A stretch of 64,000 nucleotides of DNA, taken from the NCBI RefSeq assembly GCF_900103285.1, contig NZ_FNGS01000003.1, positions 609,997-673,996 of the forward strand. Reading direction: 5' to 3'. This DNA is from Siphonobacter aquaeclarae. GTDB taxonomy: Bacteria > Bacteroidota > Bacteroidia > Cytophagales > Spirosomataceae. Position numbers and translations under genes: made by a program. Numbering within the stretch: position 1 is the stretch's first letter; each line of letters begins with the position of its first letter. Under the pieces are notes generated by a model. It was not told the origin of the DNA and did not search any database. It saw only the letters and a program-made list of their open reading frames with translations. This document shows positions 33,175 through 58,046 of this stretch, in pieces.

Positions 33175-34827
33175 ATGCAACAGCGAGTATTGAAGGTACA
33201 CCCTTCGGACAACGTGATAGTGGCGCTGACGGACCTGAAAAAAGGGGAGGTCATCACTTTTGAGGGTGTCGATTATGAACTGGTCGACGACATCGCGGCG
33301 AAACACAAATTTCTGACCGAAGACCGGGCCGTGGGAGAGCACATCACCATGTACGGCGTGCTGGTCGGAAAGGCAAAGCAGGCCATTCCCCGCGGCGGGC
33401 TGATGCATACGTTCAACACCACGCACGCGTCAGACGATTTCGGTCTCGGAACGCGTAAGCTGGACTGGCACAAGCCCGATACCGGCCGCTTCGAAGGCCG
33501 GAGTTTCATGGGCTATCCCCGCCAGGACGGCAGCGTCGGTACAGCCAACTACTGGATCGTTTTGCCGATGGTTTTCTGTGAAACGCGCAACCTGGAAGTC
33601 ATGCGGGAAGCGCTCGTAGACTCCCTCGGCTACGCGAAAAGCCAGGTCTGGAAAGATCAGACGGATCAGTTGGTCAGCCTGTACAAGGCCGGTAAGTCGG
33701 TCGCGGAAATCCTGGAAGCAGACGTAGCCGTTGAAACCACGACCGGTACCTCCTCCCGCCTGTTTCCGAATATCGACGGCGTCAAATTCCTCAACCATGA
33801 AATGGGTTGCGGTGGTACCCGTTCCGATGCGCAGGCACTTTGCGGGCTTCTGGCCGGGTACGTAACGCACCCGAACGTCGCCGGAGCTACTGTGCTCAGT
33901 CTCGGCTGCCAGAACGCGCAGGTATCGATTTTGCAGGAAGAAATTGCCAAGCGCGATCCGAATTTCTCCAAGCCGCTGCTCGTCTTTGAACAACAGGAAA
34001 TCGGCTCGGAAGAAAAACTGATTTCAGAAGCAATCAAGCAAACCTTCGCCGGACTTATCGAAGCGAATAAGCTCGAGCGCCAGCCGGCTCCCCTTTCCAA
34101 ACTGGTGATCGGCCTGGAATGCGGCGGTTCGGACGGATTCTCCGGTATTTCGGCAAACCCGGCTATCGGCCATACGTCTGATATTCTGGTGGCTCTGGGC
34201 GGTACGGTTATCCTGGCCGAGTTTCCCGAGCTGTGCGGCGTGGAGCAGGAACTGTCAGACCGGTGTGTCGACGAACCTACGGCGCTGCGGTTCAACTCGC
34301 TCATGAAGACCTACAACAGCCGGGCGGAAGCCGTAGGCTCCGGATTCTACATGAACCCGTCGCCCGGCAATATCAAGGATGGCCTCATTACCGACGCGAT
34401 CAAGTCGGCCGGCGCTGCGAAAAAAGGCGGCACCTCGCCTGTCGTAGATGTTCTTGATTATCCCGAACGCGTCACCAAACCCGGCCTCAACCTGGTGTGT
34501 ACGCCCGGAAACGACGTGGAAAGTACTACTGCGGAAGTAGCTTCCGGGGCGACGGTTGTCCTCTTTACCACCGGGCTGGGTACGCCGACAGGCAACCCCG
34601 TTACGCCGGTGATCAAGCTGTCGACCAATACCAAACTGTATAACAAGATGAATGATATCATAGACATCAACTGTGGTAGCATCATCGATGGCAACGAAAC
34701 CATTGAGCACGCCGGCGAGCGGATTCTGGAGTATGTAATCCAGGTTGCAAGCGGCGAGGTTCAGCCTCATTCCGTACGCCTCGGCCAGGATGATTTTATT
34801 CCGTGGAAGCGGGGCGTGTCACTGTAG
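33175..34827 (+). CDS. uxaA: altronate dehydratase
   Basis: A 550-residue UxaA-type dehydratase. An N-terminal SAF domain (about 1-95, VLKVHPSDNVIVAL..GVLVGKAKQAIPRGG) is joined to the large catalytic region with GYPRQDGSVGTANYW, HEMGCGGTRSDAQ, LGCQNAQVS and GLECGGSDGFSG, including Cys residues expected to bind the metal. It makes 2-keto-3-deoxygluconate from altronate. The ATG at 33175 is chosen over a TTG 36 bases earlier. A 7-base-phased hairpin begins at the stop codon. Confidence 0.95.
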   Translation: MQQRVLKVHPSDNVIVALTDLKKGEVITFEGVDYELVDDIAAKHKFLTEDRAVGEHITMYGVLVGKAKQAIPRGGLMHTFNTTHASDDFGLGTRKLDWHKPDTGRFEGRSFMGYPRQDGSVGTANYWIVLPMVFCETRNLEVMREALVDSLGYAKSQVWKDQTDQLVSLYKAGKSVAEILEADVAVETTTGTSSRLFPNIDGVKFLNHEMGCGGTRSDAQALCGLLAGYVTHPNVAGATVLSLGCQNAQVSILQEEIAKRDPNFSKPLLVFEQQEIGSEEKLISEAIKQTFAGLIEANKLERQPAPLSKLVIGLECGGSDGFSGISANPAIGHTSDILVALGGTVILAEFPELCGVEQELSDRCVDEPTALRFNSLMKTYNSRAEAVGSGFYMNPSPGNIKDGLITDAIKSAGAAKKGGTSPVVDVLDYPERVTKPGLNLVCTPGNDVESTTAEVASGATVVLFTTGLGTPTGNPVTPVIKLSTNTKLYNKMNDIIDINCGSIIDGNETIEHAGERILEYVIQVASGEVQPHSVRLGQDDFIPWKRGVSL

Positions 34828-34904
34828 CGGGAGTTTTCAGTTTACGGTTTGCAGTTTTCGGTTCACGCAACCGAAAACTGCAAACCGTAAACCAAAGCCC
34901 GCTT
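34827..34904. repeat. heptad-phased inverted repeat A (uxaA-uxuA)
   Basis: A perfect 24-bp stem (34840-34863 with 34869-34892) around loop CACGC, closed further out by GCGGG/CCCGC. The left arm reads in 7-base units with core GTTT, such as GTTTACG and GTTTGCA. The element starts at the last base of the uxaA stop and ends 20 bases before uxuA. It could reduce read-through into uxuA. Confidence 0.85.
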
Positions 34905-34924
34905 TCGCCTAATTCTCTCTCCCT

Positions 34925-36127
34925 ATGTCATTACTGCAATCCTTTCGCTGGTTTGGCCCGAAGGATCCCGTGAGCCTGCGTGACATCCGTCAGGCCGGCG
35001 CAACCGGAATCGTAACAGCGCTCCATGAAGTACCCAACGGCAAAGTCTGGACTACGGAAGCCATTGAATCCCGCAAAACCCTTATTGAAAATGCCGGCCT
35101 GACCTGGGCCGTCGTGGAAAGCGTACCTGTCCACGAGCATATCAAGCGGGGTATGCCCGACCGGGATCAGCTGATCGATAACTACAGGCAGACGCTCCGT
35201 AACCTCGGCGCCAACGGCATCAAAACGGTATGCTACAACTTCATGCCGGTGCTGGACTGGACCCGTACTGATCTTGCCTATGTGGTAGCCGACGGTTCTG
35301 AAGCGCTTCGTTTCGATGCCGTAGCCTTTGCCGCTTTTGAGCTTTTCCTGCTCAAGCGCCCGGGCGCGGAAGCCTCGTATCCGGAAGCATTCCGGCAGCG
35401 GGCCGAAGCCTACTTCCGGAAACTCAGCGAAAGCGAGAAGACCCTGCTCATCCGGAATGTTATTGCCGGTTTGCCTGGTTCGGAAGAGAGCTTTACGGTC
35501 GAGCAGTTTCAGAAAGTACTCGATTATTACGCGGAAGTAGGCGATAAAGAACTTCGTGAAAACCTGTACTACTTCATCCGGGCGATTGTGCCGGTGGCGG
35601 AAGAGGCGGGTATTCAGCTCTGTATTCACCCCGATGATCCTCCGCGCCCGATTCTGGGCCTGCCGCGGGTACTCAGCACGGCAGATGACGTCCGGCAGCT
35701 TTTCGCTGCGGCAGATTCTCCGGCAAACGGCCTGACGTTCTGTACGGGCAGTTTCGGCGTACGGGCAGATAATGACATGCCGGCTATGCTGCGGGAATTT
35801 GGTCCACGGACGCATTTCCTTCATTTCCGGAGCGTCGAACGGGAAACCGACGAAGTACCGGAAACTTTCCACGAAGCCAATCACCTCGAAGGCCATGCCG
35901 ACATGTATGAAGTCATGAAAGCAGCAGTCGAAGAAATGGCGCGGCGGAAAAAGGAAGGCCGGGAAGATATACGCATCCCGATGCGCCCCGACCACGGCCA
36001 CCGCATGCTCGACGACCTCAACCCCGACAAGCGTACCAATCCCGGTTACACGGCCATCGGCCGCCTGCGCGGGCTGGCGGAGTTGCGGGGGTTGGAGTTG
36101 GGGATAGAGAGAAGTTTAGGGTTTTGA
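34925..36127 (+). CDS. uxuA: mannonate dehydratase
   Basis: A 400-residue UxuA, TIM-barrel family. Motifs include [19 protein letters not shown] at the N-terminus, [46 protein letters not shown] and FLHFRSVER, with [12 protein letters not shown] near the end carrying metal and substrate residues. It makes 2-keto-3-deoxygluconate from mannonate (glucuronate branch), joining the same product as UxaA. Its last two codons and the stop lie inside the first two 7-base units of inverted repeat B. Confidence 0.95.
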
Positions 36128-36206
36128 GTTTAGTGTTTTGAGTGGACGGAAATCTGTTTGATGAGGGCCAAACTCTCAACTCTAAACCCCAAACTCAAAA
36201 CTCTTT
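36114..36206. repeat. heptad-phased inverted repeat B (uxuA 3' end)
   Basis: Left arm 36114-36148 is five exact 7-base units (GTTTAGG, GTTTTGA and three more). Right arm 36170-36206 reads, in reverse complement, GTTTTGA, GTTTGGG and similar units. The arms pair imperfectly and in several registers because the GTTT core recurs. A short T-run follows the right arm. The uxuA stop TGA is the end of the second unit. Confidence 0.75.
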
Positions 36207-36250
36207 TATTAACTTGCGCACAATTTCGCAAAGATTGTCATCGCAAACAC

Positions 36251-36631
36251 ATGAACTTTCCCGCAGATCTCCGCTACACAGCTGAACACGAATGGATTAA
36301 GCTGGTTGATGGAAATGTAGCCCTGGTAGGTATTACCGATTATGCACAGGACCAACTGGGTGACGTTGTCTTCGTTGAAGTCAACTCGGTTGACCAGGAC
36401 CTGGCAGCCAATGAAGTTTTCGGTTCTGTTGAAGCGGTGAAAACGGTTTCTGACCTGTTTCTCCCGGTTGCCGGTAAGGTAGTCGAAGTCAACGAATCCC
36501 TGAACGACAATCCCGACAAAGTCAACACCGATCCGTACGGTGACGGCTGGATCATCAAACTCGAGCTCGCCAATCCGGCAGATCTCGACGGCCTGATGGA
36601 CGCCACCGCCTACGAAAAGCTGGTGGGATAA
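36251..36631 (+). CDS. gcvH: glycine cleavage system H protein
   Basis: A 126-residue lipoyl carrier of normal length. YTAEHEWIKL starts the fold and the lipoylated Lys sits in GSVEAVKTVSDL. It shuttles the aminomethyl group between P, T and L proteins. The ATG at 36251 is chosen over an in-frame start 93 bases upstream, which would run through inverted repeat B. Other gcv genes are not in this window, and no glycine riboswitch is evident upstream. Confidence 0.95.
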   Translation: MNFPADLRYTAEHEWIKLVDGNVALVGITDYAQDQLGDVVFVEVNSVDQDLAANEVFGSVEAVKTVSDLFLPVAGKVVEVNESLNDNPDKVNTDPYGDGWIIKLELANPADLDGLMDATAYEKLVG

Positions 36632-36761
36632 AAACATATCTTCTCCCGGAGTTCGTTGATCCGGCGGCTGGTATGCCTCTTTTTCGAAGTAATTACCCGG
36701 ACAAGGAACAATGAATATCCACAGGAGATATTTGTTGTTCCTTTTTCAACATTTACCCAAC

Positions 36762-38060
36762 ATGAATCTGCTATTCCGCTCCGCCCGTATTCTGGATCCG
36801 CTTTCTCCTTTTCACCAGCAGGTGCTGGATGTTTGGGTGGAAAACGGCGTCATCCGGAAAATCGGAGAAAACCTTCCGGCAGCCCCTGCCGGACAAGAAA
36901 TCCGGGCGCAAGGCCTTAGTCTTTCTCCGGGCTGGCTGGACCTCCGCGTGCATGCCAAAGACCCCGGGTATGAGGCGAAGGAAGACCTGTATTCCCTGCG
37001 CCGGGCGGCGGTTGCCGGCGGATTCACTGAAATCGTCCTCCTTCCGAATACGAAGCCGGTCGCCCAAACCAAGGAAAGTCTCGGGTATTTCCGTCGGTTT
37101 TCGGAAGAGCAGGTCGTGACCTTCCTGCCCGCCGCCGCTCTGACCCTGGGTTGCGACGGCAAGGATTTTACCGAAATGCTGGACCTGCACCATGCCGGCG
37201 CCGCAGCGTATACCGACGGCGAGCATCCGGTCTGGAATGCCGATATTCTCCTGAAATCGCTTCAGTACCTGGCGCAGGTAAACGGCCTGCTGATTCAACG
37301 GCCGGAAGAGCCCACGCTGACCGTCCACGGGCAGATGCACGAAGGTACAGTCAGCACACTCCTGGGTATGCGGGGTATTCCGGCGATGGCCGAAGAGCTG
37401 GTTATTCAGCGGGACCTGCGCCTGCTGGAGTATGCCGTTGAAACCTTTGACCTGCGCCCGCGCCTGCACTTCTCGCTTGTATCAACGGGCCGTTCGGTTC
37501 AGATGATCCGGGAAGCCAAGGCGAAAGGCCTGCCCGTTACGTGTGATACGGCAGCCCACTACCTGGCTTTCACCGACGGTGACCTCGTTTCGTTCGATAC
37601 CAACCTGAAAGTAATGCCGCCGTTCCGGCCGGCGTCGGAAATCGACGCGCTGCGGGCCGGGCTGCTGGATGGTACGATCGATGCCCTCGTGTCGGACCAC
37701 TATCCGCAGGATGCCGAGTCGAAAAACCTGGAGTTTGACCTGGCTGAGTTTGGAATCAGTTCCCTCGAAACCACATTCGCGACGGCGCTGACATACGGTA
37801 ACCTCGGGCTGGAGAAGGTATTGGAGTTGTTTACGACCCGCCCCCGGGCGGTTTTGGGCCGCACACCGGTGACGATTGCCGAAGGGCAGATCGCCAACCT
37901 GACGGTCTTTAACCCGGAAGAGGAGTGGACGGTAACCCCGGCCGACTGGAAATCCAAGGGACGGAATACGCCTTTCTTCGGCAAAACGTTGAAAGGAAGA
38001 GTCCTGGGGATTGTCAACCAGGGAAAAAGCACCTTTTACCACGTCAAGCTGGGAGTCTAG
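36762..38060 (+). CDS. dihydroorotase homologue lacking metal ligands (PyrC'-like)
   Basis: A 432-residue amidohydrolase of the class I dihydroorotase type by length and order of motifs. However, the HxH motif is LRVHA (first His is Arg), the HCED motif is QRPEE (His lost), and the HVST motif is SLVST (His lost); the Asp of SDHYP remains. Three of the expected metal ligands are gone, so it is probably inactive as a dihydroorotase. Such pseudo-dihydroorotases support aspartate transcarbamoylase assembly in other bacteria; that role here is inference. The ATG at 36762 follows a TTTACCCAAC leader. The next gene starts at the base after its stop. Confidence 0.85.
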   Translation: MNLLFRSARILDPLSPFHQQVLDVWVENGVIRKIGENLPAAPAGQEIRAQGLSLSPGWLDLRVHAKDPGYEAKEDLYSLRRAAVAGGFTEIVLLPNTKPVAQTKESLGYFRRFSEEQVVTFLPAAALTLGCDGKDFTEMLDLHHAGAAAYTDGEHPVWNADILLKSLQYLAQVNGLLIQRPEEPTLTVHGQMHEGTVSTLLGMRGIPAMAEELVIQRDLRLLEYAVETFDLRPRLHFSLVSTGRSVQMIREAKAKGLPVTCDTAAHYLAFTDGDLVSFDTNLKVMPPFRPASEIDALRAGLLDGTIDALVSDHYPQDAESKNLEFDLAEFGISSLETTFATALTYGNLGLEKVLELFTTRPRAVLGRTPVTIAEGQIANLTVFNPEEEWTVTPADWKSKGRNTPFFGKTLKGRVLGIVNQGKSTFYHVKLGV

Positions 38061-38600
38061 ATGATTACGAAAGTATTTGTACGGTTTGCATTACTGGCCG
38101 GAGTGCTGGCAGGACTGGCCTGTTTTGCGTATTTCTACATCCTGAAAATCAACGATGCCATGCCGCTCGGCACCCGCCGGAACCTGGGCATGGTATTCGT
38201 CTGGATCGCGATGGCGGTCGCTGCCTACCGGTACTGGAAGGTATCAGACCGGTCCCTGCATTTTCTGGAGGTATTTCTCCTTTGTTTGACGGTGATGCTG
38301 GTTGCTTCGGCGGTGGACGGGCTGCTCGTCAGCGCCTACGTGAAGTACATTGAGCCCGGGCTTATTCCGGAATACATCGCGCAGCTGAAAGTACTGGCCC
38401 TGCGCGACCAGGCGTCTATTCAGAAAGAATTCGGAAACAAGGGAAATGCCGGACTGATCGACTTTGAGACATTCCTCAAACAAATCGACCAGATTTCGCC
38501 GGAATCCATATTCTGGAGTACCTTCGGCATTTTCCGGATGATCTTCCACGTGCTCTATGCAGCGCTGATTGGAGTATGGGTCCGGAAGATGAGTCTTTAA
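38061..38600 (+). CDS. DUF4199-like membrane protein
   Basis: A 179-residue protein with four membrane helices: two N-terminal, a third at VFLLCLTVMLVASAVDGLLVSAYV, and one near the C-terminus. A soluble helical loop of about 40 residues precedes the last helix. This layout matches DUF4199, of unknown function. Its ATG directly follows the dihydroorotase-like stop, so translation is probably coupled. A second DUF4199 gene follows after 19 bases. Confidence 0.75.
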   Translation: MITKVFVRFALLAGVLAGLACFAYFYILKINDAMPLGTRRNLGMVFVWIAMAVAAYRYWKVSDRSLHFLEVFLLCLTVMLVASAVDGLLVSAYVKYIEPGLIPEYIAQLKVLALRDQASIQKEFGNKGNAGLIDFETFLKQIDQISPESIFWSTFGIFRMIFHVLYAALIGVWVRKMSL

Positions 38601-38619
38601 CCTGTAAAAACCTGTCTGT

Positions 38620-39162
38620 ATGGAACCCACGCCTTCTACTGCCCGCGTTGCTCTGAAATGGGGCCTGATTTCCGGGATTATCTCTGCCGCTTTTTCGATT
38701 GGTTATCAGGTACTTGGCTTTATGCCCGACGATCCGACTCAGGCCAATATGGGTTGGGGCATGCTCGTCAATCTCCTGCAATTGGCCTTTGCCGTATTGA
38801 TTCTGGTACTGGCCACGCGTGAATTCCGCAGCCAGAATGACGGCTTTATTTCCTTCGGCCAGGGAGTAGGTCTTTCGGCGTTGTGCGGCGCTGTCTGGGG
38901 TGTGACGTCGGCGGGACTTACCCTGGTATACACTCAGTTTATCGATAATTCCGCTCAGGAAAAGATGCTTTCCGGATTGCGGAATGCCTATGAAGAACGG
39001 GGAATGTCGGACGAACAGATCGACGTCGCGATGAAGGCGGTGACGTTCATGACCAACCCGGGCGTCGGTTTTGTGATGACCATTCTGGTAGGCGCGCTGA
39101 CAGGCGTACTCCTTGGCCTGATCGTTGCTGCTGTCGTTAAGAAAGACCGTCCCGTATTCTGA
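38620..39162 (+). CDS. DUF4199 membrane protein
   Basis: A 180-residue protein with four membrane helices and the DUF4199 pattern: ALKWGLISGIISAAFSIGYQVLG, FAVLILVLATREFRSQNDGFISFGQGVGLSALCGAVWG, and a C-terminal glycine-rich helix. It appears to be a diverged duplicate of the preceding gene. The function is not known. The GldF-like gene begins 7 bases later. Confidence 0.85.
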   Translation: MEPTPSTARVALKWGLISGIISAAFSIGYQVLGFMPDDPTQANMGWGMLVNLLQLAFAVLILVLATREFRSQNDGFISFGQGVGLSALCGAVWGVTSAGLTLVYTQFIDNSAQEKMLSGLRNAYEERGMSDEQIDVAMKAVTFMTNPGVGFVMTILVGALTGVLLGLIVAAVVKKDRPVF

Positions 39163-39169
39163 TTTGCCT

Positions 39170-39895
39170 ATGTTTGCCATTTTCCGGAAAGAAGTACATT
39201 CCTTTCTGAGTTCCCTGGTCGGCTACGTCGTGATGGCTGTTTTTCTAACGGCTATGGGGCTGCTGGTCTGGTTATTTCCCGATACCAGCGTGCTCGACGC
39301 CGGCTATGCGGATATGGCTTCCTTCTTTCGGCTGGCGCCCTATGTTTTTCTGTTCCTCGTCCCGGCGATTACCATGCGCCTCATCGCCGAGGAACGCAAG
39401 TCCGGTACCCTGGAGCTTCTCCTGACCAAGCCGCTCACCGAATGGCAGGTTATCGGCGGAAAGTTTCTGGCCGCCTGTTTTCTGCTGCTGATCAGCCTGC
39501 TGCCGACGCTGCTCTACTATTTTTCCGTTTACCGTCTCGGTAATCCGCCGGGAAACATCGATTCGGCCAGTGTACAGGGTTCCTATCTCGGGCTGTTTTT
39601 GCTCGGATGTGTGTTTGCTGCCATCGGCGTGTATACTTCTTCGCTGACGGATAACCAGATAGTCGCCTTTTTGCTTGGGGTATTTGTCTGCTTCCTGCTC
39701 TATGTCGGGTTTAGCTCGATTGCCGGCCTGGAATGGTGGGAAGGGGCTGCCTACTGGCTGGAATGGCTCGGCCTCGATACCCAGTACAACGCGCTCGGCC
39801 GCGGACTCATTGATTCCCGAAACCTCGTCTATTTTATCTCCCTGATTCTGCTGGCGCTGGCGGGTACGTACGCCCGGCTGCGCAAGCGTAGCTGA
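39170..39895 (+). CDS. gldF: ABC-2 type permease, gliding-motility GldF-like
   Basis: A 241-residue membrane protein with about six helices. FAIFRKEVHSFLSSLVGYVVMAVFLTAMGLLVW and MRLIAEERKSGTLELLLTKPLTEWQVIGGKFLAA are typical of GldF, the permease of the gliding-associated ABC complex. The ATG at 39170 is chosen over an in-frame start inside the preceding gene. The expected neighbour gldG is missing; a DUF3472 gene follows instead. The motility role is inferred from the family. Confidence 0.85.
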   Translation: MFAIFRKEVHSFLSSLVGYVVMAVFLTAMGLLVWLFPDTSVLDAGYADMASFFRLAPYVFLFLVPAITMRLIAEERKSGTLELLLTKPLTEWQVIGGKFLAACFLLLISLLPTLLYYFSVYRLGNPPGNIDSASVQGSYLGLFLLGCVFAAIGVYTSSLTDNQIVAFLLGVFVCFLLYVGFSSIAGLEWWEGAAYWLEWLGLDTQYNALGRGLIDSRNLVYFISLILLALAGTYARLRKRS

Positions 39896-39906
39896 TCCTG
39901 CTTTTC

Positions 39907-41145: not shown

Positions 41146-41212
41146 GCATGGGGCAGAGGGCGTGGGGCATGGGGTGAAAAGCTCGTACCCCATGCTCCCT
41201 GCCCTTTGCCCC
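41146..41212. repeat. heptad-phased inverted repeat C (GCATGGG type)
   Basis: The left arm is five exact 7-base units starting right after the stop codon (GCATGGG, GCAGAGG, then GCGTGGG, GCATGGG and GTGAAAA). GCATGGGGT pairs perfectly with ACCCCATGC, and the longer stem matches 15 of 18 positions. It lies between two converging genes and fills the whole gap. Confidence 0.85.
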
Positions 41213-41661: not shown

Positions 41662-41679
41662 CGTGTGTTTGTTGGTAGA

Positions 41680-41687: not shown

Positions 41688-41691
41688 CGTG

Positions 41692-49600: not shown

Positions 49601-49649
49601 ATTTTCTGGCTTGTGTCAGATGGAAAAAGAAGACGACTCCCGACAGGCG

Positions 49650-50498
49650 TCAGGGCTGAACCCTCGGTTGCGTCCAATGCAAAAACGGACGCTTACGGAT
49701 CGGAATGGTTACGCCGGTAAACGTAGCGACAATCACCGAAATGAGCAGGACGACAAAGCAGATCTCGGCCGTATAAATCACACTCATCACCGGTTCAGGT
49801 TCTTCGTAGCGCCGGATGACAATGCCGGCCAGCGCCCACATCACCACCAGGCCATAGGAAATGCTGTGAACCGTGAAGAGCACGCCGAGCGTCAGGAGGG
49901 TACCGATGCCGATCAGCAGCATCGCCCAGGTCTGCCCGCCGAGGCCCCACTGGTTCCAGTTGACCGAGACCAGCCAGGCGGTAATATTGGCGATGGTTGC
50001 CATGGATATCCAGCCCGCATACAGGCCGAAAGGTACTTTCGTCAGCAGGTACTGCCACCGCCGGGCCCGCAGGCTCGCGATGACCTGGATACGTTCGAGC
50101 AGGATAAGCTGGGTACACAGCAGAGCAAGCATGATTCCAACCGAAAGCGCCACCTGTTCATAATGCCAGGCGACAATCCAGGAGGCGTTCAGGAGATTGG
50201 ATACAATCAGCCAGGGCCCTATGCGGGATACAAGCCGGGTAACCAGGCTGTCCGGATCGTTCCGGAATAGTCCCTTTAACTGGAAAAGAACGAAGGCGCC
50301 AAGCGTCAGGTAGATGACCCCCCAGATGGAAAAGGTAAGACCGGCCGGTGTAAAGAGGTTCGGATACTGGTCGGAGAGCTCACGCGTCGTCTTTCCGTTG
50401 AGCGGAAGGGTAACAGCGGCCCAGTTGGCGGCAATAGCCAGCAGAAACGTCAGCAGATTGAGCAGGCGGAGGACAGCCTCCCGGCGAATGGGTTTCAT
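49650..50498 (-). CDS. TspO/MBR-like multi-spanning membrane protein
   Basis: A 282-residue protein with about eight to nine membrane helices. The N-terminal half has NLFTPAGLTFSIWGVIYLTLG, which resembles the P-x-F-t-P/W motif of TspO/MBR tryptophan-rich sensory proteins, but the protein is nearly twice as long and probably a larger relative. Function is unclear; TspO proteins bind tetrapyrroles. The YihY gene is 11 bases upstream on the same strand, so the two are likely co-transcribed. Confidence 0.7.
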   Translation of the reverse strand: MKPIRREAVLRLLNLLTFLLAIAANWAAVTLPLNGKTTRELSDQYPNLFTPAGLTFSIWGVIYLTLGAFVLFQLKGLFRNDPDSLVTRLVSRIGPWLIVSNLLNASWIVAWHYEQVALSVGIMLALLCTQLILLERIQVIASLRARRWQYLLTKVPFGLYAGWISMATIANITAWLVSVNWNQWGLGGQTWAMLLIGIGTLLTLGVLFTVHSISYGLVVMWALAGIVIRRYEEPEPVMSVIYTAEICFVVLLISVIVATFTGVTIPIRKRPFLHWTQPRVQP

Positions 50499-50509
50499 AG
50501 TTGTTTCGG

Positions 50510-51460
50510 TTATGTGCGGCGAGTGGTTTCGACGTGGCTGACTTGCCCGTGGCGGAGGTTTTCCGGAAGAATCTCCTGTTCGACGACGATGACGGTCTCG
50601 GCTTTAGGCGTAATACCCCGTCCGTACCGGCGGACATAAACCTTCGTAAACTCCGCTCCGAAGTACAGAATCGTCGCCGAATAGTTGACCCACAGCAGGA
50701 TCAGGACAATGGAAGCGGCCGAACCGTATGCCGTTGCTACGTTGGAGCTACCCAGGTACAGGCCGATCAGAAACTTCCCCACCATGAAAAGTACCGCTGT
50801 GAAGCCGGCTCCTGCGAGCGAATCTTTCCAGTAGAGCTTTCCATCCGGCAAAACATTGAATATCAGAGCAAAAAGCAAGGTAATGACCACGAAAATGACA
50901 GCCAGGTTGACGAGGTAAAAGAAGAATACCAGATTGGTATGGAACATGCGCTGCAATTGCTCGCCGAAAACATCGAGCAGGGAATTGAGAAGCAGCGAAA
51001 CCAGCAGCAGAAAACCGATACTGACAATCATGGAAAAGGATAGCAGGCGGTTGATCAGCAGTTTCAGCCATCCTTTGCGGGGTTTGGCCCGGAGTGACCA
51101 GATCCGGTTGAGCGAATCCTGCATTTCCCCGAATACGCCGGTCGCCCCGATGAGCAGGGTGATAATACCGGCAACAAGCGCCGTTCCCGACCGGTCCGAC
51201 AACTCTGCCCGCTTCAGAAATTCCTGAATCTGGAGGGCGGCGTCCTTCCCTACCAGCCCGCGTATCTGCCCGAAAACTTCACCCTGAATGGCGTCTCTTC
51301 CGAAGAAAATACTGCAGAGCGAAATCACCACGATCAGCATCGGAGCAAGGGAAAAGATCGTATAATAGGAGAGCGAGGCGCTCATTTTGAGGGCATTATC
51401 CTCTGAAAATTCTTTGTAAACCTCGCTTAAAAAATCAAGGGTCAAACGTAATCGCTTCAT
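50510..51460 (-). CDS. YihY/BrkB-family membrane protein
   Basis: A 316-residue membrane protein with six helices. The N-terminal DNALKMSASLSYYTIFSLAPML motif and GATGVFGEMQDSLNRIWSLRAKPRKGW are characteristic of the YihY/BrkB family, once misassigned as RNase BN. The C-terminal VNYSATILYFGAEFTKVYVRRYG block is conserved. The cytoplasmic tail (about 285-316) is variable. Transport or envelope roles are proposed for the family; no activity can be read here. Confidence 0.9.
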   Translation of the reverse strand: MKRLRLTLDFLSEVYKEFSEDNALKMSASLSYYTIFSLAPMLIVVISLCSIFFGRDAIQGEVFGQIRGLVGKDAALQIQEFLKRAELSDRSGTALVAGIITLLIGATGVFGEMQDSLNRIWSLRAKPRKGWLKLLINRLLSFSMIVSIGFLLLVSLLLNSLLDVFGEQLQRMFHTNLVFFFYLVNLAVIFVVITLLFALIFNVLPDGKLYWKDSLAGAGFTAVLFMVGKFLIGLYLGSSNVATAYGSAASIVLILLWVNYSATILYFGAEFTKVYVRRYGRGITPKAETVIVVEQEILPENLRHGQVSHVETTRRT

Positions 51461-51659
51461 CAGATGTGGAGTGGTTTATCAGGGGTACTACCATTTCAAT
51501 GCCACGGACATTCCCCGTTGTGCCTCAGAGATGGTTCCCCGCGCTGGGGAATAATTTGCCCGAACTTCCGGAATTCAGACGTATAGAGGCGGGTGTCAGT
51601 GGTGGCAAAGAGTTTTTTCTCAAAAAGGCATCACGATTCATCCTAAACCTGAACAAGTT

Positions 51660-51812
51660 ATGCGTAGTCTGTTGTATATCATCGCCGTTCTCCTCGTGAT
51701 CGGCTGGATCATCGGAGTCGTTGGGTACAGCGCCGGAGGTTTGATTCATATTTTGCTGGTAATTGCGCTGGTGTCTCTTCTGCTGACGTTTATACGCAGG
51801 GGAACAGTCTGA
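51660..51812 (+). CDS. tiny lmo0937-like membrane protein
   Basis: A 50-residue protein (MRSLLYIIAVLLVIGWIIGV..) with two membrane helices joined by GYSAGGLIHILLVI, matching the lmo0937 family of very small membrane proteins. Function unknown. It is followed after 28 bases by another tiny membrane protein. Confidence 0.8.
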   Translation: MRSLLYIIAVLLVIGWIIGVVGYSAGGLIHILLVIALVSLLLTFIRRGTV

Positions 51813-51840
51813 CCGGATTACCTTAGAACCACACACTGAT

Positions 51841-52017
51841 ATGTCCTATGCCGTTATCGCCTTGCTGGCCCTGGGATTAGGGGCTATGCTGGCAGCGCTG
51901 ATTGACTGGTTTACCCAGGGCAGTGAACTGGGATATTACCGTCCCGGAAAACACGTCCAGCGCTCCGATTTCAGTCATTTCATCCGGACCGTACGGAATA
52001 AATCGGCCCGGGTTTGA
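51841..52017 (+). CDS. tiny membrane protein of unknown function
   Basis: A 58-residue protein with one N-terminal membrane helix (SYAVIALLALGLGAMLAALI) and a basic cytoplasmic tail (YYRPGKHVQRSDFSHFIRTVRNK). I do not recognise a family. Good spacing to the preceding small gene and a terminator downstream support real coding. Confidence 0.55.
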   Translation: MSYAVIALLALGLGAMLAALIDWFTQGSELGYYRPGKHVQRSDFSHFIRTVRNKSARV

Positions 52018-52073
52018 GATAAGTTCTTACCCGAAAGGGTTTGTTAGGTTAGGTAAAACAATGGGGGAAAAGG

Positions 52074-52105
52074 AAAGTCCGGTAGCGATGCTGTCGGACT
52101 TTTTT
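52074..52105 (+). terminator. intrinsic terminator of the small membrane protein pair
   Basis: AAAGTCCG pairs with CGGACTTT (8 bp, 13-base loop) and is followed by T6. Confidence 0.88.
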
Positions 52106-52113
52106 GTTGGCTT

Positions 52114-52190
52114 TAAGCCGTAAGCTGTATGCGATAAGCTATAGGTGTGCCTTCCGCAGCCTATAGCTTATCGCATACAGCTTACAGCCG
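52114..52190. repeat. heptad-phased inverted repeat D (GCTGTAA type)
   Basis: A perfect 26-bp stem (52120-52145 with 52160-52185) around a 14-base loop. Both arms read in 7-base units of the form GCNNNNN (GCTGTAA, GCTGTAT, GCGATAA, GCTATAG). It follows a normal terminator by 9 bases, so termination alone does not explain it. Confidence 0.88.
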
Positions 52191-52310
52191 ACGATAAAGC
52201 CTTCAATCCACTGCTTACCGCCCCAAATTGCCGCTCATCCAAAAAGGTCTGTGTACAATTCCGGACTCGGCGTAACATTGAGCTATCAACACGCTGATCT
52301 AACCGTACCG

Positions 52311-53753
52311 ATGAGGCAGAAACTGTGGCTGGCGATAGTGCCGGTTTTTCTTTGCTTGTCCGTCTTCGCCCAGGAAACGCGGGCGGTCCGGAAATTGACC
52401 CTGCAGGAATGTGTGGATGTCGCCTGGAAAAATAACCTCCAGGTGAAGCAGAGCCAGGTGCAGGTGGACGTCAACCGGAACAACCTGGCGCAGTCGCAGG
52501 CCAATCGGTTGCCTACGCTCAACGGTTCCGCCGGGCAGGGGTTAAACCTCGGGCGGAATATTGACCCGTTTACCAACACCTACGTCACCCAGACGCTGAA
52601 TTACACGAATCTGGGGCTCAATTCGTCCGCTACGATCTACAATGGCGGAATTATCAACAATACCATCAGGCAGAATGACCTGCTGCTTCAGGCCAGCGAG
52701 CAGGATGTACAGGCCAGCCGCGACCAGGTAGCGCTCAACGTCGTCCTGGCGTATCTGCAGGTTATCAACAATGAAGATGTCCTGTCTGTAGCCCGTGCCC
52801 AGGTCGAAATTTCGGCCCAGCAGGTAGCGCGGACGGAAAAACTGGTACAGGCGGGCGCCCTTCCGCTGGCGAATCTCCTGGACCTGAAGGCGCAGCTTGC
52901 CAACGACGAGCTTTCAATCGTTACGGCAGAAAACAACCTGGCGCTGTCGCGTTTGCAGCTGGTTCAGCTCATGAATGACAAATCGATCCGGGAATTTGAG
53001 CTGGATCGGTTAAGCGTTAATACCCCCGGCGACGGATACGACGCCGGTATTCAGCAGATCTACGATGTGGCGGTAGGCACGCAGGCAGCGGTAAAAGCCG
53101 CCGAACTCCGGACGCTTAGCGCCCGGAAAGGTGTTGATATTGCCCGCGGCTCATTCTATCCCTCACTTGGATTCAACTTCAGCATGGGGTCCAACTACTC
53201 CAGCGCTGCGAAACGCTCGCGCCTGGGAGAGCCTACATCGGTGAGTACTTCGGCGGAGGTGGAATTCAACGGACAGAAAGTTCCGATTACCTTCACGACC
53301 CAGCAGCCTACGTACCTGACATCGGCTATTCCCTGGGCGAATCAGCTGACGAACAACGTCAACGGCGGTATCGGCGTGGCGATGCGTATACCGATTTTCA
53401 ACGGATACCAGGTACGGTACCGGACGGCCAACGCGATCCTCAACGTTAAAAACCAGGAATACCAGACAGAAAATACGAAACTTCAGCTCCGGCAGAATAT
53501 TGAGCAGGCATACGTCAACATGACCGGATCGTCGAAAAAATACGCTTCGCTGAGCAAGCAGGTAGAATCCCTCGAGCAGGCCTTTAAGGCCGCCGAAAGC
53601 CGGTATAATGCCGGCGCAATCAATGCCGTGGATTACAACCTGGCGAAGACGAATCTCGACCGCGCCCGGATCAACCAGGTGCAGGCCAAGTACGACTACA
53701 TCCTGCGGATCAAAGTACTCGACTACTACCAAAACAAACCCTTGTCCTTCTGA
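52311..53753 (+). CDS. TolC-family outer-membrane efflux protein
   Basis: A 480-residue TolC protein: signal peptide MRQKLWLAIVPVFLCLSVFAQ, then two outer-membrane-factor repeats rich in long helices (LTLQECVDVAWKNNLQVKQSQVQV; the second at about 250-470 with YNAGAINAVDYNLAKTNL). It forms the outer-membrane duct of a tripartite exporter with the membrane-fusion protein encoded 50 bases downstream. No inner-membrane pump gene is in the window. The ATG at 52311 starts the signal peptide; an in-frame start 60 bases earlier is rejected. Confidence 0.93.
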   Translation: MRQKLWLAIVPVFLCLSVFAQETRAVRKLTLQECVDVAWKNNLQVKQSQVQVDVNRNNLAQSQANRLPTLNGSAGQGLNLGRNIDPFTNTYVTQTLNYTNLGLNSSATIYNGGIINNTIRQNDLLLQASEQDVQASRDQVALNVVLAYLQVINNEDVLSVARAQVEISAQQVARTEKLVQAGALPLANLLDLKAQLANDELSIVTAENNLALSRLQLVQLMNDKSIREFELDRLSVNTPGDGYDAGIQQIYDVAVGTQAAVKAAELRTLSARKGVDIARGSFYPSLGFNFSMGSNYSSAAKRSRLGEPTSVSTSAEVEFNGQKVPITFTTQQPTYLTSAIPWANQLTNNVNGGIGVAMRIPIFNGYQVRYRTANAILNVKNQEYQTENTKLQLRQNIEQAYVNMTGSSKKYASLSKQVESLEQAFKAAESRYNAGAINAVDYNLAKTNLDRARINQVQAKYDYILRIKVLDYYQNKPLSF

Positions 53754-53803
53754 CACATCAACCGGCATACCCTCGGCAGGGCCGGCTTTAACACCCGTTT
53801 CAC

Positions 53804-55180
53804 ATGGCAAAACGTTCTTCAAATCGGATCTGGTGGATTCTCGGCGGCATCGTCATTCTCCTGGTCGGCGGGCTCCTCGTCGCGAAATCGGCCGGCTGGA
53901 TCGGAAAGGAAAAGGAAGAGGAAGCCACATTCAGCAAAGCCCAAAAGGCGGACATCGTGGAGCGTGTGAGCGCTTCCGGGAAGGTTCAGCCGGAAGTGGA
54001 AGTCAAAATCAGCCCGGATGTTTCGGGGGAAATCATTGAATTGAAAGTACACGAAGGAGATTCCGTCGTGAAAGGTCAGCTGCTGCTGCGGATTCGTCCG
54101 GATAACTATGAGTCGCTCGTAGCCCGCGCAAAAGCCGCTGTAGATCAGGCCCGTGCAAGCTATGAACAGACCAAAGCATCGGTCGGACAAATGGAAGCCC
54201 AGCTCGCCCGTGCGCAGGCCGATTACAACCGGAACAAGAAGCTGTATGGAGATAAAGTTATTTCAGACGCTGATTTCGAAACATCCGAGGCCAACTTCAA
54301 AGTAGCCCGTCAGAATGTTGAATCGGCCCGGTCCAACGTCGACGCCTCACGGTTTGCCGTCGAAAGCGCGCAGGCAGGCCTGCGCGACGCCGGCGAAAAC
54401 CTGCGGAAAACGACTATCTACGCGCCTTCGAGCGGTATTATCTCCAAGCTGGGCGTAGAGCTTGGCGAGCGGGTGGTAGGTACTTCGCAGATGGCCGGTA
54501 CGGAAATGCTCCGTATCGCGAACCTCAATAACATGGAGGTACGGGTAAACGTCAATGAAAATGATATTGTCCGGGTCAATGTCGGCGACTCCGCCCTCAT
54601 TGATGTGGATGCGTATACCTACTCCGGCCGGAAATTCAAGGGTATTGTCACGTCTATTGCCAATACCGCGAATGGCTTGGGCGGATCAGTATCGGCGGCG
54701 GCAACAGCTACCGATGCCGTGACGGAGTTTGAAGTAAAAATCAAGATTCTGCCGGAATCGTATATGGATCTGGTCGACCGTTCGAAGAAGCGGAGTTTTC
54801 CGTTCCGTCCGGGCATGACGGCTTCTGTCGAAGTCATCACCGAACGGAAAAACGGGGTACTCAGCGTCCCGATCGCCGCCGTGACAACGCGTACGGAAGA
54901 AAAGAAAACAACCGAGAGCGAAGAGCCTGTCGTGACCAATACCAACCAGCGTCCGAAGGAAGAGAAGCCGAAAGAGGTGGTTTTCGTCAACAAAGCGGGC
55001 GTGGTAGAGATGCGGGAAGTGAAAACCGGCATCAGCGATTTCGAAAACATCGAAGTAATATCAGGCCTGAAGGAAGGGGAGGAAGTTGTATCCGGCCCGT
55101 TCCTCCTCGTCTCGAAAAACCTCAAAGCCGGAGATAAAGTGAAGAAGAAAGTAGAGAAGAAAGACGGGAAGAAGGAGTAG
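53804..55180 (+). CDS. HlyD-like membrane-fusion (periplasmic adaptor) protein
   Basis: A 458-residue adaptor. One N-terminal membrane helix (IWWILGGIVILLVGGLLVA) precedes the lipoyl domain (RVSASGKVQPEVEVKISPDVSGEIIELKVHEGDSV), the long helical hairpin (about 110-190), and the beta-barrel and membrane-proximal domains. The C-terminal tail is Lys-rich. It bridges a MacB- or RND-type pump to TolC. Its stop is followed by inverted repeat E. Confidence 0.93.
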   Translation: MAKRSSNRIWWILGGIVILLVGGLLVAKSAGWIGKEKEEEATFSKAQKADIVERVSASGKVQPEVEVKISPDVSGEIIELKVHEGDSVVKGQLLLRIRPDNYESLVARAKAAVDQARASYEQTKASVGQMEAQLARAQADYNRNKKLYGDKVISDADFETSEANFKVARQNVESARSNVDASRFAVESAQAGLRDAGENLRKTTIYAPSSGIISKLGVELGERVVGTSQMAGTEMLRIANLNNMEVRVNVNENDIVRVNVGDSALIDVDAYTYSGRKFKGIVTSIANTANGLGGSVSAAATATDAVTEFEVKIKILPESYMDLVDRSKKRSFPFRPGMTASVEVITERKNGVLSVPIAAVTTRTEEKKTTESEEPVVTNTNQRPKEEKPKEVVFVNKAGVVEMREVKTGISDFENIEVISGLKEGEEVVSGPFLLVSKNLKAGDKVKKKVEKKDGKKE

Positions 55181-55186
55181 GGAGGC

Positions 55187-55303
55187 GGTTTTGGAGTTTT
55201 CAGTTTAGGGTTTTCAGTTTAGAGTTTGGAGTTTGGAGTTTGGGGAGGGCGCAATGGCCTGCCTTGAACTCTAAACCCTAAACTCCAAACTCTAAACTTT
55301 TTT
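55187..55303. repeat. heptad-phased inverted repeat E (terminator-like)
   Basis: From 55196 the left arm is seven exact 7-base GTTTNNN units (for example GTTTAGA, GTTTGGA). An 18-bp perfect stem (55217-55234 with 55280-55297) is directly followed by T6, so it can act as an intrinsic terminator for the adaptor gene. It lies in the convergent gap with recF. Confidence 0.85.
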
Positions 55304-56426
55304 ATTTCTGACCGATGGTGATGATGCCGGCGTCGATGCCGGCGTCGCTGAGGAGGGCCTGGGTACGTTCGGGGCGGGCGTCGGTGAGGAAGACCTGGCC
55401 GAAGGTTCCGTCTTTCATGCAGCGGAGGAGCATGGCGATGCGGCGGTCGTCGAGCTTGTCGAAAATATCGTCCAGCAGGAGAATAGGCTGGAAGCCTTTT
55501 TCGCGGGTGAGGAGGTCGAACTGCGCGAGTTTAAGGGCGATGACAAAGGATTTTTGCTGTCCCTGTGACCCGAATTTCTTCAACGGGTAGGAGTCGATTT
55601 CAAAAAGGTAATCGTCCCGGTGAATGCCCATCGTAGTCCGCTGAGCGGCAACGTCCCGGTGCCGGTTGAGCCAGAATTCCCGCTGAAAATCATCCGGTAC
55701 AATCTCTGAATCATAGGCAATGGAGACGGCTTCCCGCCCTTCGCTGAGGCCGGTATAGTGCTCCTGAAAGACCGGGAGAAAAGAGGCGATGAACGCTTTC
55801 CGCTGCTCATGCAGGCGTAGCGAAAGCTCCACCAGGGGCTGGGAATAGGCTTCGAGCAAGTCTTCGTCGGTGTAATGCCGCTCGTGAAATTGCTTGAGGA
55901 GAGAATTCCGCTGGTCGAGCAGGCGGTTGTATTGCAGCAGATCGGCGAGGTAATCAGGCCGTTGCTGAGACAGTACGCCGTCGATAAACTTCCGGCGTTC
56001 TTCGGAGCCGTCGCGGACGAGGTCGGTATCATCCGGCGCGATCAGGACAACGGGAAAACGGCCGATGTGATCAGCGAGGCGTTCGTAGGCTTTGCGGTCC
56101 TGCAATACCACTTTCCGCTGCCCGCGCGGCAGGGAAACGGTAATCTGGGAAGCTTTGCCGGAAGCAGGTATAGAATCGGAAAACGCTTCGTCGCTTTTGC
56201 GGAACGTTCCGTCGATTACCATGAAATCCGCGCCATGCCGGATGGAGAGGGCGTCCTGACTGGTCAGGGCACTTTTCGTGAGCGAAAGGAAATAAATAGC
56301 GTCGAGCAGGTTGGTTTTACCGCTGCCGTTCTCCCCCACAATGGCATTTATACGCCTGGAAAACAGAAAGGCCTCCGAATCGTACGATTTATAATGGGTA
56401 AGATGGAGCCGTTCCAGAAAAAGCAT
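55302..56426 (-). CDS. recF: DNA replication/repair protein RecF
   Basis: A 374-residue SMC-like ATPase of normal RecF length. The N-terminus LERLHLTHYKSYDSEAF and Walker A GENGSGKTNLLDA are followed by the ABC signature region (GSQGQQKSFVIALKLAQ) and Walker B PILLLDDIFDKLD. It loads RecA at single-strand gaps with RecO and RecR. The dnaA-dnaN neighbours common elsewhere are absent. The upstream region is shared divergently with pdhA. Confidence 0.95.
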   Translation of the reverse strand: MLFLERLHLTHYKSYDSEAFLFSRRINAIVGENGSGKTNLLDAIYFLSLTKSALTSQDALSIRHGADFMVIDGTFRKSDEAFSDSIPASGKASQITVSLPRGQRKVVLQDRKAYERLADHIGRFPVVLIAPDDTDLVRDGSEERRKFIDGVLSQQRPDYLADLLQYNRLLDQRNSLLKQFHERHYTDEDLLEAYSQPLVELSLRLHEQRKAFIASFLPVFQEHYTGLSEGREAVSIAYDSEIVPDDFQREFWLNRHRDVAAQRTTMGIHRDDYLFEIDSYPLKKFGSQGQQKSFVIALKLAQFDLLTREKGFQPILLLDDIFDKLDDRRIAMLLRCMKDGTFGQVFLTDARPERTQALLSDAGIDAGIITIGQK

Positions 56427-56450
56427 CTTTGTGTTTTAACGATTGGAAGC

Positions 56451-56458
56451 TAATTTCG
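56451..56458 (+). promoter_or_regulatory. near-consensus -7 element (TAATTTCG) before pdhA
   Basis: TAATTTCG matches seven of eight positions of TAnnTTTG, 87 bases before the pdhA ATG. Confidence 0.35.
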
Positions 56459-56473
56459 CCGAAAGTTTCGAAT

Positions 56474-56510
56474 CATGGGTTTAACCGAACTGTGCCGCGC
56501 AGAACCCATG
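56474..56510. promoter_or_regulatory. inverted repeat in the pdhA leader
   Basis: CATGGGTT and AACCCATG are perfect 8-base arms 21 bases apart, between the likely -7 element and the pdhA start. It could be an operator or an RNA hairpin. Confidence 0.4.
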
Positions 56511-56544
56511 GCCTCTACTTTCACGCTTTTAATCCCAGAGTTCA

Positions 56545-57561
56545 ATGGCAACAAAAGAAAAAGCCAAGGCGAAGGTAAAATACCCGAAAGAAACCTACCT
56601 CTTTTGGTTTGAAAATATGCTGCTGCAGCGGCGTTTCGAAGAGAAAGCCGGCCAGCTGTACGGTCAGCAGAAGATCCGTGGCTTTTGCCATTTGTACATC
56701 GGCCAGGAGGCTTGCTCTACCGGCGCTGCTACTGCCCTCACGAAAGACGACAAGTGGATTACCGCCTACCGGGATCACGGGATTCCGCTGGCGCTGGGTA
56801 CCAGCCCGAACGCGATCATGGCCGAGCTCTTCGGAAAAGCCACCGGTACCACCAAGGGTAAGGGCGGCTCCATGCACATCTTCGACAAGGAACACAACTT
56901 CATGGGTGGTCACGGAATCGTAGGGGCGCAAATCCCCCTCGGCGCCGGTATCGCCTTTGCCGAAAAGTATAACAAAACCGGTCACCTCGCCATCTGTTAC
57001 TTTGGCGACGGAGCCGTTCGTCAGGGTGCCCTGCACGAAGCCTTCAACATGGCGATGACCTGGAAACTTCCGGTGATTTTCGTTGTGGAAAACAACGGCT
57101 ACGCGATGGGTACCTCTGTTGAGCGGACGTCCAACGTAACCGATCTCTACACCATTGGTGAAGCGTATGACATGCCTTCCGAGCCGGTTGACGGCATGAG
57201 TGTAGAAGCGGTTCACGAGGCCGTTGGCCGTGCCGCTGAGCGCGCCCGCAAGGGAGACGGCCCGACCTTCCTCGAATTCAAAACCTACCGGTACCGCGGA
57301 CACTCCATGTCCGACCCCCAGAAATACCGGACGAAGGAGGAGGTAGAATCCTACAAGCAGCGCGACCCGATCGAGTGGGTACGTCATACCATCCTCGAAA
57401 ACGGCCTGGCGACGGAAGAAGACCTCGCCGCCATCGAAGAAAAGATCAAAGGTATCGTAGCGGAGTCGGTGAAATTCGCCGAAGAATCTCCCTGGCCGGA
57501 CGCATCCGAAGCATATAAGGATGTGTATGTGCAGGCGGATTATCCGTTTATTCAGGAATAG
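56545..57561 (+). CDS. pdhA: pyruvate dehydrogenase E1 component, alpha subunit
   Basis: A 338-residue thiamine-diphosphate enzyme subunit. The N-terminal MLLQRRFEEKAGQLYGQQKIRGFCHLYIGQEA and the ThDP motif YFGDGAVRQGALHEAFNMA..VENNGYAMGTS are intact, and the phosphorylation-loop-like YRGHSMSDP follows. With the beta subunit (not in this window) it decarboxylates pyruvate and transfers the acetyl unit to lipoyl-E2. An Ala/Lys-rich tail of about ten residues starts the protein. Confidence 0.95.
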   Translation: MATKEKAKAKVKYPKETYLFWFENMLLQRRFEEKAGQLYGQQKIRGFCHLYIGQEACSTGAATALTKDDKWITAYRDHGIPLALGTSPNAIMAELFGKATGTTKGKGGSMHIFDKEHNFMGGHGIVGAQIPLGAGIAFAEKYNKTGHLAICYFGDGAVRQGALHEAFNMAMTWKLPVIFVVENNGYAMGTSVERTSNVTDLYTIGEAYDMPSEPVDGMSVEAVHEAVGRAAERARKGDGPTFLEFKTYRYRGHSMSDPQKYRTKEEVESYKQRDPIEWVRHTILENGLATEEDLAAIEEKIKGIVAESVKFAEESPWPDASEAYKDVYVQADYPFIQE

Positions 57562-58046
57562 CGGAAGCGGTTTTCAGTTTTCCGTTTACAGTTTTTAGTT
57601 GGAGGGCCGGCGTAATTGCCGGCCTTCTGCGTTTTCGGGTTTGTTGTTTTCAGTTTACCGTTTGTTGTTTTCAGTTTTCGGGGGTGGCGTATCTGGTCGC
57701 CTGCCGTGCGTAGCATCCGCTACGCACTTTTTAGTTAGTAGGCTGCGCCTACCCGTTGAGAAGACAATAGTCTGTTCCTCAATGCATAGATGGTCTCACT
57801 ATCAAAGCATTTTACTTCGTACCTACCATAAGTTGCCAAGATTGATTTTACGGAAGCCTTAAACAGTAGGCATAGCCTACTAACTAAAAAGTGCGTAGCA
57901 TTTGCTACGCACGGCGGGGGGCGGCCTGATACGCTACCCCCGAAAACTGAAAACAACAAACGGTAAACCCGAAAACGCAGAAGGCCGGCAATTACGCCGG
58001 CCATCCAACTGAAAACTGAAAACAGTAAACCGAAAACCGCTTTCGC
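57562..58046. repeat. composite nested inverted repeat F, heptad-phased
   Basis: A 485-base palindromic element filling the gap between the converging pdhA and glpK. From outside in, each arm has GTTTNNN 7-base units, a GGCCGGC hairpin, a second GTTTNNN block, a GTGCGTAGC hairpin, a TTTTTAGTTAGTAGGC segment and a TAGGC-centred hairpin. Arms run about 57562-57753 and 57865-58046. The AT-richer centre of about 111 bases is unpaired. The left arm carries 14 extra bases (two units) in the second block. Confidence 0.85.

Follow-up and report, generated by a model that had tools for sequence, protein, structure and literature searches.

Why should inverted repeats drawn from word classes without a common word be built to one plan? 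The question is posed by a 64,000-nucleotide stretch of the genome of Siphonobacter aquaeclarae (assembly GCF_900103285.1, contig NZ_FNGS01000003.1, positions 609,997 to 673,996; hereafter the window, C18:609997-673996 of the 6.19-Mb, 19-contig genome G000), in which a preliminary description had reported six intergenic hairpins whose arms read as consecutive seven-base words in strict phase. We propose, at a probability of roughly 45%, that these loci are palindromic minisatellites at gene ends, which undergo strand-specific slippage and whose arms are kept alike by copying or by selection. By its E1 protein, the closest named relatives of G000 include Runella, Telluribacter and Larkinella (Cytophagales), and our comparisons extend to five congeners (G001 to G005) with a block syntenic with the window; labels beginning with L denote fetched sequence stretches. 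Arm complementarity and word phase bore out all six hairpins:

Locus A, 34833..34892, unstranded: GTTTTCA-class heptad hairpin, arms 34840-34863 and 34869-34892, 100% complementary
Locus B, 36114..36206, unstranded: GTTTAGG/GTTTTGA-class heptad hairpin, arms 36118-36146 and 36176-36204, 83% complementary
Locus C, 41146..41212, unstranded: GCATGGG-class heptad hairpin, arms 41150-41175 and 41187-41212, 85% complementary
Locus D, 52114..52190, unstranded: GCTNTAR-class heptad hairpin, arms 52117-52145 and 52160-52188, 97% complementary
Locus E, 55187..55303, unstranded: GTTTAGA/GTTTGGA-class heptad hairpin, arms 55216-55241 and 55273-55298
Locus F, 57560..58047, unstranded: long nested inverted repeat with GTTTTCA-class heptad arms, 57560-57663 and 57944-58047, 86% complementary

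Locus A sits between tandem uxaA-like and uxuA-like genes, directly past the uxaA stop codon, and B overlaps the stop codon of uxuA. Locus C spans from the stop of a plus-strand gene to the end of a minus-strand gene, D lies directly 3' of an ordinary terminator and upstream of an outer-membrane efflux gene, E (which itself ends in TTTTTT) occupies the gap between convergent stop codons, and F runs from stop to stop of convergent genes, with further palindromes between its heptad arms. Five of the six touch a stop codon or lie at most 7 bases from one, as first described. The further claim that the fifth unit starts with GT and opens the loop holds for A to D but not as a general rule, L037:748, L176:2103 and L045:11058 opening otherwise.

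Period seven across the genome

A lag-7 filter finds seven hairpins in the window, the six loci and a short one at 36703-36743, against none in 59 of 60 dinucleotide shuffles and one in the remaining shuffle. A periodicity scan independent of hairpins gave, at its loosest threshold, nine stretches at lag 7, three at lag 12, four at lag 14 and two at lag 21 (14 and 21 being multiples of seven), with no more than one at any of the remaining lags between 4 and 25. In an even sample of 464 kb, comprising the window and 20 stretches spaced evenly over two contigs, 14 of the 39 hairpins whose arms reached 18 bases had a lag-7 identity of at least 0.6, and other lags had one at most, apart from lag 14; when a single lag had to dominate all lags from 3 to 13, lag 7 accounted for 22 hairpins (7 in the window, 15 elsewhere) and each other lag from 4 to 13 for none to three. 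The lag-7 signal, whose loss had been named beforehand as a possible refutation, persists in evenly placed sequence of the same genome.

Across all 61 G000 sources (the window and 60 stretches), lag 7 dominates 72 hairpins and lag 9 comes next with 24, two thirds of them belonging to a period-9 class; 20 of the 60 stretches, and several more, were picked for known arrays in or beside them, which inflates densities and per-gap rates outside the even set. Placement, word, wobble and arm-match counts cover 70 of these 72, without L035:11510 (which overlaps a gene) and window:36703, and the earlier G-rich-arm, T-run and first wobble counts cover 42 of 45, without these two and without L036:15402, whose lag 7 is not at least 0.1 above other lags. 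Genome-wide, three GTTTNNN units followed by GTTT have 450 matches in G000, with overlapping matches of an array counted separately; the reversed pattern has 0. The heptad elements are tandem units of exactly 7 bases, as in simple sequence repeats (SSRs); outside expanded arms adjacent words differ at 933 of 3360 positions, and expanded arms are pure.

The heptad design is genome-wide in G000 and recurs in other Cytophagales with other words. The GTTT pattern is present in 22 of 59 relatives, in several of which the reversed control is equally frequent. The dominant lag in 80 named loci (1.51 Mb) is 7 for 32 hairpins at 21 loci, 8 for 16 at 12 and 12 for 15 at 14; the excess at seven is therefore smaller outside the genus, and by a simpler criterion it is slight there (38 vs 31 at lag 8).

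Nor is period seven invariant, as the preliminary description had it, for periods 8 and 9 share the same layout. The period-9 class of G000, three copies of TCTGTGNNN, surfaced through the control lags and has 206 matches genome-wide, with none for the reversed pattern; the loop of its hairpins is short and A/T-rich and often contains a run of T or A (e.g., L176:2768-2842, L188:9828-9895, L229:16297-16362). The pattern had 0 matches in the five congeners and 19 other family members searched, and 3 matches in one more distant member of the 39 genomes, G038; the class is a lineage-specific birth. A 1.26-Mb sample of G000 holds 16 period-9 elements, 8 of them convergent. Of the 44 neighbor pairs among the listed places of G000, 40 face inward (plus then minus), the other four being in the opposite order. 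Period-8 hairpins number 21 in relatives, with a G-rich 5' arm in 19 and a C-rich one in none. The short hairpin at 36703-36743 (AAGGAACAATGAATATC) lies in the gap before an amidohydrolase gene and, though it passes the lag-7 filter, was left out of the finding; a GAACAAG-type lag-7 hairpin stands at a similar place in two congeners (L079:19573, L089:19937).

The expanded arm and the agreement of arms

Long pure runs of one word sit in one arm of an element in G000. By a six-word pattern, pure arrays keep to a single strand per contig (7 of 7 on C7, 2 of 2 on C11, 2 of 2 on C17, both on C12 and all three on C8), and C6 has a pure array on the minus and a mixed one on the plus strand. Arrays are on the plus strand of C7, C8, C12, C14 and C16, whose fourfold-site GC skew is negative, and on the minus strand of C17, C18 and C6, whose skew is positive. 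Pure runs of at least 14 lag-7 matches occur in 20 of the 72 elements and, in 19 of these 20, in the arm predicted from contig GC skew, namely that with the G-rich word on the C-rich strand (17 of 18 if C11 is left out). The full set of 72 shows a weaker trend, with the entry arm more homogeneous in 39, the exit arm in 22, and 11 ties. In most bacteria the C-rich strand is the lagging strand. If that applies here, the expanded arm might be the one first entered by the lagging-strand polymerase. Direction of transcription was rejected as the cause of the expanded arm: in the 12 tandem cases the longer arm lay nine times on the 3' side of the transcript and three times on the 5' side.

The arms of an element also agree with each other. 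Both variable spacers are identical across arms in 31 of 40 period-9 arm pairs (listed G000 places, each with its neighbor in plus-then-minus order, four opposite-order pairs being uncounted), in 12 different combinations, against a mean of 3.8 identical pairs and a maximum of 12 when partners were shuffled 10,000 times. Period-7 arms match their own locus at 0.807 vs 0.725 for other loci in the GC class (n=27) and at 0.871 vs 0.811 in the GTTT class (n=36), 7 of the 70 elements falling in no class and being left uncompared, and the likeness is modest: an average of 26-28% of the other loci give an equal or better match. In 21 of 38 elements the arm match falls (p <= 0.2) when words are shuffled within an arm. 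Loops and flanks mostly do not agree between elements, 65 of the 70 sharing neither with another; the five that do are F, L182:7679 and L214:16789, which have a dispersed palindromic module in common, and two neighboring copies in L230. Fifteen motif-picked period-9 hairpins had no loop or flank sequence in common, a weak test given their short loops.

We propose that DNA synthesis may stall at the hairpin and slip back by whole words, so that the arm entered first would lengthen, and that the other arm would then be re-matched either by template switching, in which synthesis copies across the hairpin, or through selection on the stem. Short-patch copying might move words between loci and leave loops and flanks behind, and the elements would persist because a hairpin at a gene end is harmless, or because it is useful for transcript 3' ends from both sides. 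The strand specificity of pure expansions supports unit-wise slippage, one of the explanations first offered, for one arm in G000; the polarity is not replicated in congeners. Slippage, arm copying and word exchange leave the fixed and free word positions described below unexplained, and the spread of words without flanks is only partly explained by palindromic minisatellites.

A number of observations weigh against this account. The skew was measured after the array strands were already known, and it is too near zero to call on C11 (+0.009, arrays on the minus strand) and 0.000 overall, +0.039 at fourfold sites, on C6. Pure arrays of the GTTT class show the reverse skew polarity on 8 of 8 contigs in G002 and 7 of 8 in G004, where the exception, C1, has weak skew, and two runs of the GTTGTT class in G002 have the same polarity as in G000, opposite to the GTTT-class arrays of G002. 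The arrays in these two congeners are for the most part of a different kind: among 26 pure runs, 3 have an inverted partner within 260 bases, these being of mixed polarity, and 14 have the motif of a dispersed palindromic element beside them, so that element orientation rather than slippage may set the array strand there. As the congeners do not replicate the polarity, the rule rests on one genome. The variability of word positions is highly unequal, which plain slippage with drift would not yield. On the side of arm agreement, a period-7 arm finds its best match, ties included, in its own partner in only 7 of 27 cases (GC class) and 3 of 36 (GTTT class), period-9 agreement would be partly descent if those hairpins spread as whole units, and arm-to-arm copying is a proposal; the nearest genomes compared were those of congeners. 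Array lengths may also have been shortened by assembly.

STRR sequences of heterocystous cyanobacteria are heptanucleotide tandem repeats in direct arrays. Heptanucleotide SSRs, as described in PMC4679880, resemble the present elements in their contiguous, intergenic 7-base units and in length differences in 7-base steps; TAACTGA repeats, found in Beggiatoaceae, cyanobacteria and some Bacteroidetes, are direct arrays of one exact word, placed mostly near start codons in that paper's main genome, whereas here degenerate words of several classes form paired inverted arrays with concordant arms, mostly at gene 3' ends. The same paper reports that slippage and a 7-base polymerase contact were proposed earlier by Mrazek and colleagues. 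Bacterial heptamer repeats are already known and slippage by seven has been proposed, and in a limited search of the open-licence PMC literature we found no description of inverted pairs of phased-word arrays whose vocabulary can be exchanged. If palindromic minisatellites are the right account, they would offer a natural readout of slippage with an internal control, the same words being present in both orientations and one arm growing. Stem agreement kept at many loci while words change would make RNA selection, DNA copying and protein recognition separable, and the account may extend to the way in which gene ends are closed in many Cytophagales.

Words and layout at orthologous loci

Five word classes have been read so far: GTTTTCR; GTTTAGR, with GTTTTGA and GTTTGGA; GCTNTAR/GCTNTCR; GCRTGGG; and, in congeners, GTTNTTR. 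Words have a frame plus free positions. Over 480 adjacent word pairs from 70 elements, taken unanchored, mismatches are uneven across the seven positions, with a statistic of 1171 against 592 +/- 21 (maximum 650) in 500 permutations. In GC-anchored words, C makes up 2% at position 4, which otherwise varies among A, G and T, and 95% have G or A at position 7; GTTT-anchored words vary at positions 5-7, with 1% C at 5, 3% C at 7 and mostly C or G at 6, anchoring on GC or GTTT favoring those letters by construction. The description of the classes as unrelated in sequence stands insofar as they have no word in common, but A or G is the last letter of 85-95% of the words anchored on GTTT or GC. Near-fixed positions beside others that vary among A, G and T, and are rarely C, suggest an added recognition or structural constraint. 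The 5' arm is G-rich in 41 of 42 elements and has C over G in none, compared with 62 G-rich and 37 C-rich among 116 ordinary hairpins; in relatives the figures are 49 and 6 of 58 heptad hairpins, and 217 and 176 of 465 ordinary ones. In neighbor pairs of the strict motif, the G-word comes first in 57 of 59.

At locus F all five congeners have inverted 7-base arms with GTTNTTR words instead of GTTTTCR, at hairpin scores of 8-18 that are weak in some, and at the place of D three of five have a GTTTAGR/GTTTTGR-class hairpin instead of GCTNTAR; at both loci the word class differs in both arms together while place and phase stay. By reading, arms of other words are present at B in four of five congeners (at low scores in G001 and G004), and a lone AAAC-side arm is present at A in all five, weak in G002. 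A stricter hairpin filter lets through only F, D and B in G002 and D and B in G003. No heptad hairpin was read in the five congeners at C, where there are ordinary hairpins by eye, or at E; the element is missing at both, but the gaps are too different to show an empty site. Lag-7 hairpins that appeared under a loose criterion at A (G001, G003, G004), B (G005), C (G002, G004) and E (G005) were read as terminators, chance or low complexity and set aside. The idea that period and geometry, rather than sequence, are conserved thus survives in part: at B, D and F the layout outlasts the words, in all congeners or in some of them, but period 7 is not invariant.

It is possible, though doubtful, that Cytophagales have a self-sustaining class of genomic palindromes in which a grammar and not a sequence is inherited. 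The length of the words, a single fixed G in each, the G-rich arm first, the gene-end position and arm agreement would persist while words are replaced and new classes, even of a new length such as period 9, spread to about 100 sites in one lineage, driven by hairpin-templated copying or by a trans-acting reader.

Alternative readings: possible transcript ends, reader proteins or mobile elements

Selection on transcripts, keeping the hairpins as bidirectional terminators or exonuclease-resistant ends and their arms concordant by compensatory change, is in our judgment unlikely, although gene-end placement agrees with it. By a simple Markov gene caller written for this analysis, 30 of the 70 elements lie between convergent genes, 34 between tandem and 5 between divergent ones, with 1 unassigned; counted per gap, heptad elements are present in 29 of the 103 gaps between convergent genes, in 33 of 343 tandem and in 5 of 135 divergent ones, known arrays having partly guided the choice of the sample. 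The first 41 sources gave 20 convergent, 20 tandem and 3 divergent cases of 45. The "divergent" cases include at least one, D, that has a terminator before it and hence also stands behind a 3' end; that terminator at the same time speaks against the transcript-end reading. As single RNA strands, A to E have fold z-scores of -4.0 to -13.2 (A, -11.1), with 0 of 200 shuffles as stable at each locus, and C and E occupy places where congeners have, by eye, ordinary terminators.

Intrinsic bidirectional terminators are likewise hairpins directly past stop codons, often between convergent genes, but the heptad arms are periodic and T-runs rarely adjoin the stem (2 of 42 heptad elements vs 21 of 116 ordinary hairpins). 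Another strong hairpin is present in 5 of 29 convergent gaps with heptads vs 44 of 74 without (Fisher p = 1.4e-4), as expected if heptads served in its stead, but in tandem gaps the exclusion is not significant (p = 0.32), and a permissive terminator scan found no depletion in heptad regions (18 of 29 vs 52 of 74, p = 0.48). Wobble exceeded A-C mismatches in tandem elements (61:38, p = 0.027) but not in convergent ones (39:40), the tandem excess fell to 39:24 (p = 0.077) without expanded elements, and the test with 42 elements was null (tandem 24:20, convergent 32:25). Together these tests point weakly to RNA-level selection on the hairpins. Rfam gave no match at gathering score in window positions 30000-60000, only sub-threshold microRNA look-alikes on C and D, and a search of the window for tRNA and tmRNA found none. 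Lone arrays read away from the nearest gene in 28 of 32 cases; many may be halves of decayed hairpins, and we conclude nothing from them.

We consider it improbable that the arrays are binding sites for a protein reading phased words, by analogy with Omega/ParB of pSM19035, with the hairpin a by-product of inward-facing arrays. Such a reader could account for the strong split between fixed and variable word positions and for the fixed inward orientation of strict-motif and listed period-9 pairs, and a ribbon-helix-helix protein that binds contiguous 7-bp repeats is already known (PMC9499535). The parS heptads described there, the nearest 7-bp protein-binding array known to us, are, as here, contiguous and unspaced, but they consist of one consensus word at six plasmid sites, whereas the present words fall into several classes at many chromosomal sites, change at orthologous loci and in some cases have periods of 8 or 9.

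A non-autonomous mobile family resembling repetitive extragenic palindromes (REPs) or miniature inverted-repeat transposable elements, which the preliminary description had also raised, is improbable in conventional form: many copies at gene ends, the period-9 burst here but in none of the five congeners, the module common to F, L182:7679 and L214:16789, and the many pure arrays of G002 and G004 that adjoin a dispersed element speak for it, but only 5 of 70 period-7 elements share loop or flank, the 15 period-9 hairpins (with loops too short for a strong test) share none, and G001 and G005 have heptad arrays without a Y1 transposase match, where G000 has one. REPs and bacterial interspersed mosaic elements, the nearest comparable palindromes known to us, are also high-copy and intergenic (PMC2817692) and are tied to the rayt gene that they flank, whereas here there are several word classes and no palindrome common to copies. 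The REP-associated Y1 transposase was itself rejected as a driver, its presence not tracking heptads; the sole Y1_Tnp match in G000, L048:9201-9756, lies beside a cluster of GACCCC-GGGGTC and GCCCGG palindromes, and no GTTT or TCTGTG arrays were found within about 3 kb of it.

What does carry over from the mobile-element idea is that F contains a dispersed module:

Dispersed palindromic module inside F, 57709..57752 (G000:C18:667705-667748), plus strand: CGTAGCATCCGCTACG ... GTAGGCTGCGCCTAC

The module has 11 matches in G000, 18 in G004 and 1 in G001. An F-type dispersed element, made of nested palindromes (CGTAGCATNYGCTACG, GTAGGCTGYGCCTAC) with two facing copies at some places, is also found in G000 at C7:487762-487987, C8:112705, C8:536873, C12:692143 and C13:118184, and heptad arms border it wherever inspected (F, L182, L214). 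Long direct heptamer arrays in congeners adjoin one end of dispersed palindromic elements (AACCCC..GGGGTT, GCCCCG..CGGGG) and have their G-word on the G-rich strand (G002 C4:110000, C6:28564, C10:31408; G004 C213:188676, C221:335292).

Some smaller observations concern the surroundings of D and tandem copies elsewhere. Upstream of D, at about 52026-52110 and behind two small open reading frames, a stretch (TTACCCGAAAGGGTTTGTTAGGTTAGGTAAAACAATGGGGGAAAAGGAAAGTCC) without Rfam match is identical by eye in all five congeners and is followed by the terminator; it may be a small RNA or a conserved 3' untranslated region. Elsewhere in the fetched stretches, GCTNTAR hairpin units seem to be duplicated whole, in tandem, two or three times (L185:11780-12353, L227:17837-18201, L230:8080-8580), and at L032:14239-14597 a unit of about 130 bp with GGTGGTTGAGCTACGTCGAAACCA palindromes stands in three tandem copies.

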